From: a virus | IMG/VR virus record: IMGVR_UViG_3300046167_000083 | Coordinates: 1 to 34,591 of that record | Length of the DNA stretch: 34,591 bases | Direction: 5' to 3' (one strand) | Shown: piece by piece, positions 5,496-8,376 of the stretch | Layout of the letters: the number at the start of each line of letters is the position of its first letter | Numbering within the stretch: the stretch's first letter is position 1 | Position numbers and translations under genes: made by a program | The notes under the pieces: model-generated | Seen by the model: only the letters and a program-made list of their open reading frames with translations | Databases searched by the model: none | Told to the model about the DNA's origin: nothing

Positions 5496-6746
5496 TTAGT
5501 ATCCTGCTACCACGTCTAAAATTTCGTGGTCCTCAATTTCGTAGTCGTAGTCGTACGCTACATTTGCCAGTTGGTCAATATACGCCAAAGCGTCTATCAA
5601 GTCGTCATGCGTCAAAGGATCAGGGAATTGAAACAACTGGTCTAAAAACCTAGAATTCCACTCACCTTTGTTTAATGTAATGTAGCCGTTTTCGAAACGA
5701 CCTTGTAGTGCCCACATTACTCTGTCGGTCTTCTTTTTATTACCGTGGGTAAGCTCTTCTACTCTGAAGAACATACCGTATCTTTTCTGCATGTCAACAA
5801 GCGGAGACATCACAGCTTGTTTAGCAATACCTCTTTCGATTCCAACCGACACGGGACGGTAATCTCTAACGGCCTGAAATATCTTAGCTGCTGTTTCGTC
5901 AAGACTCCATCTACCGTATATGATATTGTCAACATACCAACCATGCTCATTGACCTTAACCACTGCGATGGCCGTGTCGTCAAGCTTGGAGTTCTTAGTC
6001 TTTTTCTTGTTGACTTCTTCAAAACCTGCCAAGTCAACTGCAATGTAGTAATCTCCTACTTCCGGCTCATCTTCACTAAACCTAACCCAATCCTCTTTAA
6101 ACATTTCTGAACCACGGGCTTCAAACGACGCCATAAACTCCTGACGAAACGCATAAGAAGACATAGAGCGTTTAGCAATGTCGATTTCACTAGGGTCCAA
6201 CAACGGGTTATCATAGCTCGTAAAGTGCCAAGCTTTGTACGTAGGGTCATCATCTAAATCCGCATATTTGTATAGTTCGTAAAAGTGGTTCCTTCCCATT
6301 GGCGTACCAATGAACATTGCACAGCCCTTTTGGTCCGCCAAAGCAGGTCTCAAGATCTGCTCAAACACCTCTGGTTTCATGTCAGCGTACTCGTCCATGA
6401 CTAGAAACTTGAGGCTGACACCTCGCATTGTCTCTGGTCTGTCGGCACCTTTGAGGCTAATGGTAGCACCGTTGACAAGCTTAATTTGCAGATTATTAAT
6501 ATGGCTACCAGAGATAACAGGGTGTCCCAGTTCCATAAGGGTTTGCCACATGATGTCTCTGGCTTGTCCCTGAGTAGGTGCGACGTAAAATACATGGCCT
6601 CTGTCCGCCTGAAGTGCGTTAACTATTAACATCCAAGCTGCTAACCTAGACTTACCCGTACGTCGCCCAGCAGCTACTATTTTAAATCTTGTGTCGTCTG
6701 CCCAGACTTCTTGTTGCCAAGGCAGTAGCTCTATATTAAGATCCAT
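5496..6746 (-). CDS. terL: Terminase large subunit (packaging ATPase and nuclease)
   Basis: A 416-residue motor that pumps DNA into the procapsid and cuts concatemers. Walker A is GRRTGKS at residues 27-33. Walker B is FLVMDE at 114-119, followed by EYAD. A coupling motif FIGTPMGRNHF lies near 145-155. The C-terminal RNase H-like nuclease shows D238 (YIAVDLAG), E304 (GIERG) and D381/D385 (HDDLIDAL). It is shorter than T7 gp19 (586) but complete for both domains. It overlaps the upstream gene by 11 nt and precedes portal. The packaging mode (pac, cos or direct terminal repeats) cannot be read from this circularised sequence. Confidence 0.95.
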   Translation of the reverse strand: MDLNIELLPWQQEVWADDTRFKIVAAGRRTGKSRLAAWMLIVNALQADRGHVFYVAPTQGQARDIMWQTLMELGHPVISGSHINNLQIKLVNGATISLKGADRPETMRGVSLKFLVMDEYADMKPEVFEQILRPALADQKGCAMFIGTPMGRNHFYELYKYADLDDDPTYKAWHFTSYDNPLLDPSEIDIAKRSMSSYAFRQEFMASFEARGSEMFKEDWVRFSEDEPEVGDYYIAVDLAGFEEVNKKKTKNSKLDDTAIAVVKVNEHGWYVDNIIYGRWSLDETAAKIFQAVRDYRPVSVGIERGIAKQAVMSPLVDMQKRYGMFFRVEELTHGNKKKTDRVMWALQGRFENGYITLNKGEWNSRFLDQLFQFPDPLTHDDLIDALAYIDQLANVAYDYDYEIEDHEILDVVAGY

Positions 6747-7089: not shown

Positions 7090-7440
7090 TAGTACAACCA
7101 AAGCACTGGAGTAGTACCCCTAGTGTCCACATGTACAAACGTATCAGCAATGCCCACACCAGTAAAACCAAGGTTCAAAGCATTAGCCACAATAGTGTAG
7201 CGGTGGGCGGCATTTGTTATTTTTATGTCAGCCGCAATCCCCTGTGCATGTGTTCCCGGCACTTCCTTTTTTCTTTCAATAGGGTGCTGAGTTGGATGAC
7301 GGTAACCACTCGTCACCTCAAAGGGGAAAGCCACACGCACCCCGCAATTGGTCTAACTTCTCTAGGAACTCTTGTTCCATATTGTTAGTACCAGTGACCT
7401 GACAATCGAATTCTTCTCTAGTAAAATGCTTAAGAGTCAT
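7089..7440 (-). CDS. M15-family peptidase (endolysin) split by a +1 frameshift
   Basis: Lysis enzyme cutting peptidoglycan cross-links. The natural start is the ATG at 7440, giving MTLKHFTREEFDCQVTG and on to LRGACGFPL, then TGA at 7320-7318. The next frame (7340 to 7089) continues with FPFEVTSGYRHPTQHPIE, GTHAQGIAADI and TFVHVDTR, ending WLY. The two halves together make a normal M15 protein of about 116 residues with zinc ligands H and D in THAQGIAAD and H in FVHVD. One extra C in a CCCC run (7323-7326) causes the shift. The site reads CCC CTT TGA, like the RF2 recoding site. It could be programmed, a mutation, or a sequencing indel. The gene overlaps its upstream neighbour by 11 nt. Confidence 0.8.
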
Positions 7441-7816
7441 CTTCTACTACTTCTCCTTCGATTATATCAGGAGTAGACACTTCAGCAGTGCCTACGCCAC
7501 TAATGTTGATCTGTATAGCGTTTCTACCGTTGTCTTTGACTACGTCCTTTTCAAAGGCACCCACTGGTAGTATACGGTCCATCACAAGTTTCCAAGCAGC
7601 AGCTTGATTCTTATGGTCATGGTCCAAAGCAGCATCAAAGATCGTCTCTAGGACCTTGCGTGACTTTGGACTAGCCAGCATACGAGCCTTGTACTCATTA
7701 ATTATCGCTGCGTCACCCTTTGGTCGGCCTACTACACCCTTGTTACCGGGCTTTACAGCAGCTACTTCAGACTTCCGGGGTCTGCCACGACCTCTTTTTT
7801 TAACAACGTCGGTCAT
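7430..7816 (-). CDS. AT-hook DNA-binding protein, candidate small terminase
   Basis: A 128-residue protein and the first gene of the late arm. It starts MTDVVKKRGRGRPRKSE, where GRGRPRK is a classical AT-hook; a second GRPKGD occurs near residue 31. A helical core follows (AIINEYKARMLASPKSRKV, then IFDAALDHDHKNQAAAWKLV), and the tail is acidic (PDIIEGEVVEDDS). This layout suits a small terminase subunit that recognises phage DNA and contacts TerL; its position two genes upstream of TerL supports that. A DNA-binding regulator is the alternative. The sigma-70 promoter at 7845-7873 should start transcription about 20 nt before its ATG. Confidence 0.6.
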   Translation of the reverse strand: MTDVVKKRGRGRPRKSEVAAVKPGNKGVVGRPKGDAAIINEYKARMLASPKSRKVLETIFDAALDHDHKNQAAAWKLVMDRILPVGAFEKDVVKDNGRNAIQINISGVGTAEVSTPDIIEGEVVEDDS

Positions 7817-7968: not shown

Positions 7969-8090
7969 TATTTTGTGTCTAGGTAGCTACTACAAAAGTC
8001 TAACACATGTCAACCCCTCCCCCGCCCCAAGTTTCTACGCGGGTTTCAGCAAAAGTTGACACAAGGCACGGCCTATGGTAGCGACCAGAG

Positions 8091-8108
8091 TTGGCACGGG
8101 TATTGCAT
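8091..8108 (+). promoter_or_regulatory. Sigma-54 (RpoN) promoter, copy 1
   Basis: TTGGCACGGGTATTGCAT matches the known -24/-12 consensus TGGCACG-N4-TTGCA exactly, with GG at 8093-8094, ten bases, then GC at 8105-8106. The predicted start is near 8118, inside copy 2, so copies 1 and 2 could not be occupied together. A degenerate copy lacking the -12 GC (AAGGCACGGCCTATGGTA, 8063-8080) lies just upstream. Confidence 0.75.
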
Positions 8109-8116
8109 GGGGCAAC

Positions 8117-8134
8117 TTGGCATGGGATTTGCAT
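8117..8134 (+). promoter_or_regulatory. Sigma-54 (RpoN) promoter, copy 2
   Basis: TTGGCATGGGATTTGCAT has GG at 8119-8120, ten bases, then GC at 8131-8132. It differs from the consensus only by T for C in the -24 box. The predicted start is near 8144. Confidence 0.7.
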
Positions 8135-8193
8135 GGGTTGACAAGTGCGTGGGCTTATGTTGGTCCCTCTGGTCACAACCTGAGCTGATAAAG

Positions 8194-8210
8194 TTGGCAC
8201 GGGTTTTGCT
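8194..8210 (+). promoter_or_regulatory. Sigma-54 (RpoN) promoter, copy 3
   Basis: TTGGCACGGGTTTTGCT has GG at 8196-8197, ten bases, then GC at 8208-8209, again matching the consensus. The predicted start is near 8221, about 155 nt before the first early gene. It is the copy nearest the genes. Confidence 0.75.
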
Positions 8211-8280: not shown

Positions 8281-8301
8281 TGTGAATATTTACGCTTCAC
8301 A
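8281..8301. promoter_or_regulatory. Inverted repeat TGTGAA-N9-TTCACA in the early leader
   Basis: A perfect 6-bp inverted repeat with a 9-bp spacer lies downstream of all three sigma-54 sites, so it would be in the early mRNA leader. It resembles a CRP site in its half-sites, but the spacing (N11 between TGTGA and TCACA instead of N6) is wrong for CRP. It may be an operator for another regulator or a leader hairpin. Confidence 0.35.
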
Positions 8302-8361
8302 TCTGGGTCGACCTATGGTTTCATACACACATGGCGACGGGGGACAGAAGCCACCCCTAAA

Positions 8362-8376
8362 TGAGAATCATTATCA
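8362..8376. promoter_or_regulatory. Fur-box-like palindrome at the first early gene
   Basis: TGAGAATCATTATCA is a 7-1-7 inverted repeat matching the Fur core TGATAATNATTATCA at all but one position; the flanking A and T extend the symmetry. The iron-loaded Fur repressor recognises this pattern in many proteobacteria. It covers one candidate start (8361) and touches the next (8376), so a bound protein would block transcription into the early genes. Another palindrome-binding regulator is possible. Confidence 0.5.

Follow-up and report, generated by a model that had tools for sequence, protein, structure and literature searches.

In the 34,591-bp virus record analyzed here (the window), we found three closely spaced sequences, located in the gap between a leftward structural operon and a rightward early operon, that almost certainly are recognition sites for sigma-54, as judged from their sequence (Table 1). 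These sites may be part of a swappable docking array for the host sigma-54 RNA polymerase that serves as a decoy, an anchor for DNA entry, or a sensor; we assign this reading a probability of about 0.48. It is favored because the sites match the best Escherichia coli sites, are swapped with DnaA arrays in relatives, and keep a helical phase. It is further favored because sigma-70-type candidates lie downstream, enhancer-binding protein and RpoN genes were not found, arrays occur at gene ends in other phages, and the cultured phages pVp-1 and Ceto have a layout that fits. What we computed directly comprises the presence and conservation of the sites, their swapping and helical spacing, and the failure to detect genes for a T7-type polymerase, an enhancer-binding protein, or RpoN.

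Table 1. Features of the intergenic gap and of the adjoining genes in the window.
Feature	Position	Strand	Remarks
Terminase large subunit (TerL)	5496..6746	-	phrog_2, 3e-44; anchor for the search for relatives
Leftward operon, first ORF (128 aa)	7430..7816	-	Position of a small terminase subunit; candidate identity by position
Left conserved element, TTTTGTGTCTAGGTAGCTAC ... CCCCTCCCCCGCCCC	7971..8028	+	Ahead of the swappable segment; present in most relatives inspected
Swappable segment	8029..8138	+	Putative sigma-54 sites 1 and 2 in the window; relatives have DnaA boxes, Fur-like boxes, or repeats of another kind
TTGACA-N11-YTATGNTRG, second copy	8056..8080	+	Contains the fourth sigma-54 copy proposed earlier
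Putative sigma-54 site 1, TTGGCACGGGTATTGCA	8091..8107	+	Predicted transcription start, if used, ~8118
Putative sigma-54 site 2, TTGGCATGGGATTTGCA	8117..8133	+	26 bp from site 1 to site 2
Right conserved element, GTGCGTGGGCTTATGTTGGTCCC; group consensus GTGTGTGAGCCTATGTTGGACCC	8145..8167	+	Found in 100/143 relatives
Putative sigma-54 site 3, TTGGCACGGGTTTTGCT	8194..8210	+	Right conserved element lies upstream
Candidate sigma-70-type early promoter, TTCACA-N17-TTTCAT	8296..8324	+	TGn before the -10 hexamer
First early ORF, 111 aa	8361..8696	+	ATG at 8376 may be the start

Sigma-54 sites in the window

All three sites fit the consensus YTGGCAYG-N4-TTGCW, with -24 GG and -12 GC elements in exact GG-N10-GC spacing. 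They are the only exact matches to TGGCAYG-N4-TTGCW in the whole record, in which the backward control pattern had none. For scoring, we used a sigma-54 weight matrix trained on 42 intergenic ChIP-seq sites of E. coli (motifs from PMC4591121). Sites 1, 2, and 3 scored 19.8, 19.1, and 18.2, which ranks them below only 1, 4, and 7, respectively, of the E. coli sites in this set, and the next-highest score in the window was 13.3. Across 300 dinucleotide shuffles, the third-best score reached 15.0 at most, compared with 18.2 for the third site of the window. From these patterns we infer occupancy of the sites by sigma-54, as well as every aspect of their function discussed below.

An earlier note on this DNA had described three plus-strand sigma-54 sites with exact GG-N10-GC spacing upstream of the early operon. 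The pattern match and the matrix scores bear out the sites and their spacing, and the placement is correct since the gap that holds them separates the leftward operon from the rightward early operon. All three were located properly, although the ends given for the first two were one base too long. Two of the checks that it had proposed, against shuffled sequence and against relatives, did not refute the sites, which outscore the shuffles and are conserved (see below). A fourth, degenerate copy had been placed at 8063, and this candidate was rejected. It scores 6.3 of 20.5 by the consensus matrix and sits inside the second copy of the TTGACA-N11-YTATGNTRG repeat, which resembles positions 8139-8163.

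Phage type and gene content

The replication genes of this phage are T7-like and encode a primase-helicase, a family A polymerase, a Cas4-type exonuclease, and an endonuclease, followed by a ribonucleotide reductase. The leftward operon, on the opposite strand, contains the 128-aa ORF and the genes for TerL, portal, and capsid. Neither the 128-aa ORF nor the 111-aa first early ORF had a match in the PHROG search. By the criteria for T7-like phages (Autographiviridae), the replication module is present and the RNA polymerase gene is not: a single-subunit RNA polymerase (PF00940) was absent from the window and from 21 relatives, in a search that detected the T7 positive control. The T7-like assignment made in the earlier note thus stands for the replication genes and not for transcription, and without such a polymerase the phage presumably uses that of its host. 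We also found no enhancer-binding protein in the window or in 50 site-bearing records, and no RpoN gene in the same 50 records.

The group to which this phage belongs is abundant and uncultivated, with at least 599 TerL relatives in IMG/VR. None of 50,697 cultured phage records is a near relative at the DNA level. Protein searches yielded distant relatives only (portal and capsid identities of ~31% or below), and thus no isolate of the group. Assignment of a host via bacterial contigs was discarded, as the three metagenome-bin matches fell in three phyla (Sphingobacteriales, Verrucomicrobiales, and Planctomycetaceae); the one match of the three with upstream sequence had no sigma-54 sites there.

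Conservation and swapping among relatives

We compared 143 non-redundant relatives that were found via TerL; the sequence covered amounts to 350 kb next to this gene on the side of the array and 334 kb on the opposite side. Exact sigma-54 sites numbered 286 on the array side and 1 on the other, a contrast that is flattered by the mostly coding nature of the control side, and at least one site was present in 70 of the 143 relatives. DnaA boxes showed a similar distribution (158 vs. 0). The relatives share common ancestry, so these counts are not independent. Among near relatives, the distance from the sites to TerL and their direction are kept, and the -24/-12 cores are constant while the spacers drift, as in the orthologs of site 1 with altered spacers (L005, L006, L007, L010, L018, L025, L026, and L046).

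The sites are also exchanged for other repeats. DnaA-box arrays, without any sigma-54 site, occupy this spot in relatives whose TerL is up to 100% identical; for example, DnaA boxes replace the sigma-54 sites in L004, of which the TerL protein is 100% identical. The array region of the window has no DnaA box. Several relatives carry both types of sites together, and in L023, L036, and L038, site 3 alone is kept next to a DnaA-box array. Sigma-54 sites and DnaA boxes share the stretch from -300 to 0 that precedes the right element. Further repeats at the swap spot in relatives include ATGCAAYGCA repeats and TTGGCA-N-TGCCAA palindromes, and all array types lie between the same two flanking conserved elements.

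Two side observations concern the same spot. Repeated Fur-like boxes replace the sigma-54 array upstream of TerL in L069 and L316, and 10-bp CACCATTGGG tandems are found at the swap spot of L284, L285, and L287, with copy numbers that vary among close relatives.

Spacing of the sites

Same-strand sigma-54 sites are spaced, start to start, at 25-29, 35-38, 47-50, and ~57-60 bp, with hardly any spacings below 24 bp or at 30-34 bp. The spacings cluster at a phase of ~200 degrees of a 10.5-bp turn, with R of 0.73 in this group and, for the gaps of 4-34 to which the tandem scan was limited and on which alone they are informative, R of 0.37 in unrelated phages (p = 4e-4). Such half-integral spacing (~26, 36, and 47 bp) would place neighboring sites as if on opposite faces of the DNA. 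DnaA boxes are spaced differently, with clusters at 11, 19, and 22 bp.

Arrays in unrelated viruses and cultured phages

At least 120 virus stretches contain the tandem sigma-54 pattern, and they form ~60 clusters without DNA similarity among the matches listed. A permuted tandem pattern of the same composition had no match in viruses. The tandem pattern occurs once in 294 genomes from the phylum of the Planctomycetaceae bin. For four unrelated contigs that carry arrays, a search for closely related isolates gave nothing useful. In pVp-1 and Ceto, two cultured T5-like Vibrio phages, the pre-early region holds two convergent sigma-54 sites with a pair of DnaA boxes between them; these sites are near the A1/A2 genes and, in pVp-1, inside a 0.9-kb non-coding gap. 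Our literature search returned no report of such arrays, which does not prove that none exists.

The placement of the arrays in unrelated phages is mixed. With ORFs of at least 100 aa, same-strand arrays face a same-strand gene in 25 cases and an opposite-strand gene in 11 (p = 0.03), a bias that we counted against docking. At a cut-off of 150 aa, the numbers are 24 and 17 (p = 0.35), the ORF calls being rough. In 17-21 arrays the sites are on mixed strands. Some placements are unlike those of promoters, such as arrays that face the 3′ end of an opposing gene, which is small-terminase-like in L096 and a portal gene in L198. It is conceivable, if somewhat doubtful, that many unrelated phages carry standardized docking arrays for abundant DNA-binding proteins of the host, namely the sigma-54 holoenzyme, DnaA, and possibly Fur, with protein-specific helical spacing and exchange of the arrays as cassettes. 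Such arrays would be decoys or entry anchors rather than promoters or origins.

Other arrangements of sigma-54 sites were seen as well. Five stretches of large phages (L127, L134, L138, L179, and L196) each have at least eight dispersed consensus sites. In L115, L155, L164, L179, and L195, closely facing sites form long palindromes, which in L195 recur at a period of 43 bp.

Early transcription and the function of the sites

The principal alternative is that these are genuine sigma-54 promoters, which would serve the early operon or, in reversed orientation, the late operon and would depend for activation on an enhancer-binding protein of the host or on a small phage protein in its stead, with relatives having switched promoter class. 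We consider this alternative serious, if less probable than a docking array. The match to the consensus and the need for a host polymerase in a phage that has none of its own both fit promoters, and so does the direction of the sites in relatives, of which 228 point toward the early genes and 58 are reversed. The reversed sites point to the late operon, which likewise begins in the gap, and site 3 is conserved at a constant position before the early genes. We counted the direction bias, the target of the reversed sites, and the constancy of site 3 against the docking array.

Several other observations speak against promoters. With a spacing of 26 bp, transcription from one site would begin where the -24 element of its neighbor lies; the predicted start of site 1 falls at the very border of site 2, so the two are unlikely to fire independently. 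Close relatives have DnaA, Fur-like, or other repeats at the same spot, and some sites in other phages are convergent or at gene ends. No activator gene was found in the phages, although one of the host could serve. Finally, there are sigma-70-type candidates downstream. The candidate listed in Table 1 is the best sigma-70-like match in the 330 bp past the right element, yet it is weak (z = 2.0 vs. shuffles, and 4/6 positions in the -10 hexamer; this weakness was counted against docking). It is kept at the orthologous position in L046, L041, L033, L026, L021, and L044. Strong sigma-70-type matches were found in the array-bearing relatives L059, L061, and L135 (TTGACA/TATTAT) and L193 (TTGACA/TATAAT). 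The mean best sigma-70 score is 10.1 in relatives with sigma-54 arrays and 8.4 in those without any sigma-54 site. Given these candidates, the array is not necessarily required for early transcription, and it is plausible that transcription starts elsewhere, at sigma-70 elements. The earlier note had proposed that the sites drive the early genes and thereby make the onset of infection dependent on RpoN. The sigma-54 type of the sites and their conservation agree with this proposal, whereas the DnaA arrays of relatives, the sigma-70-type candidate downstream, and the missing enhancer-binding protein do not.

Under the preferred docking function, sites 1-3 would be high-affinity sites for the host sigma-54 RNA polymerase, and sites 1 and 2 would represent one version of a swappable array in the gap between the leftward structural and the rightward early operons. 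The array would load host DNA-binding proteins onto phage DNA, namely the sigma-54 holoenzyme here and DnaA, possibly Fur, and others in relatives. The loaded proteins could titrate a host factor, hold or pace DNA entry in the manner proposed for the injection stop signal of T5, or report the state of the host to the early promoter. Early mRNA would probably come from the sigma-70-type promoter, and the sigma-54 sites, site 3 above all, would be a conditional second source at most.

A further alternative, which we regard as unlikely, is that a protein other than sigma-54 (a phage initiator, a repressor, or a host nucleoid protein) binds the repeats, for example as origin iterons or packaging-site repeats. 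The repeats lie beside TerL and between conserved elements, resembling origins or packaging sites; the DnaA boxes of relatives suggest an origin; and several contigs terminate exactly in the right element, as a packaging cut would produce. Against this, the ~12 conserved positions are those of the sigma-54 consensus and the N4 spacer varies, a pattern shared with host promoters, and the phage brings T7-like replication genes of its own. The motif is also found in the ~60 unrelated clusters among the matches listed, for which we know of no protein in common. A chance resemblance without function has a negligible probability: single matches do arise by chance (the best score reached that of the third site in 5/300 shuffles), but the clustering of three sites above all third-best shuffle scores, the site counts in relatives, and the permuted-pattern control refute it.

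Two minor features were noted near the early promoter. A Fur-like box at 8357-8375 (4/19 mismatches) overlaps the start of the first early gene; it is kept in L018 and altered yet similar in L044, and alone it is not significant, its score being reached in 7/40 shuffles. In L012 and L066, AATTAACTSGAGTTAATT palindromes are found at a consensus sigma-70 promoter and the first early gene, and are perhaps an operator.

Comparison with known systems

Use of host sigma-54 by a phage is not new in itself, which limits the novelty claimed in the earlier note: according to PMC5053324, the Pseudomonas phage YuA (Ceyssens et al., 2008) has host sigma-54-dependent promoters, and this dependence also favors promoters in the present case. 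YuA and the phage studied here are alike in carrying recognition sites for host RpoN. The sites in the window differ in being tightly spaced and on the early side, and in that close relatives have DnaA or other arrays in their place, while YuA is reportedly a siphovirus with separate sigma-54 promoters in the structural and lysis region.

The injection stop signal of T5 contains repeats, palindromes, and DnaA boxes to which host components possibly bind (PMC13250531). In the present group, relatives of the DnaA and mixed types likewise have non-coding repeats that include DnaA boxes in their early region, the window itself having no DnaA box there, and in the Vibrio relatives of T5 this region combines DnaA boxes with sigma-54 sites. 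Unlike T5, the present phage has a podovirus-like genome of ~35 kb in which no A1/A2-type genes for two-step transfer were recognized. On the E. coli chromosome, sigma-54 sites untied to transcription have been mapped as scattered singles, many of them inside genes (PMC4591121). Consensus sites bound by the holoenzyme need not be promoters; unlike the chromosomal sites, those of the phages are clustered and helically spaced. Titration of DnaA on the E. coli chromosome (PMC12371093) offers another parallel, in that clusters of binding sites could soak up a host regulator. That process is chromosomal and concerns DnaA only, whereas the phage segment swaps among sites of several proteins.

If the sites do form a docking array, sigma-54 would be exploited in a manner undescribed in the literature that we found, at a spot retooled for other host proteins, and the role of T5-type DnaA boxes and stop-signal repeats would receive a testable general answer. 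If they are promoters instead, the early genes of a widespread phage group would be tied to host RpoN, with consequences for host range and for the nutrient dependence of infection.

Possible genome end at the right element

Seven contigs (L032, L069, L070, L153, L215, L232, and L239) stop, as judged by eye, within the right element at almost one and the same base, toward TerL. For a 4-bp window, the probability of this shared stop is ~1e-9 under uniform ends. Because breaks in assembly at the edge of a conserved sequence could mimic shared ends, we take these stops to suggest, rather than demonstrate, a packaging cut at the right element. There is no clear clustering of left contig ends, and an inspection of the ends of ten long contigs showed no terminal repeats bounded by the conserved elements; a 127-bp overlap in one of these contigs is located elsewhere. 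The L032 contig has a 2,141-bp self-overlap that ends in the right element.
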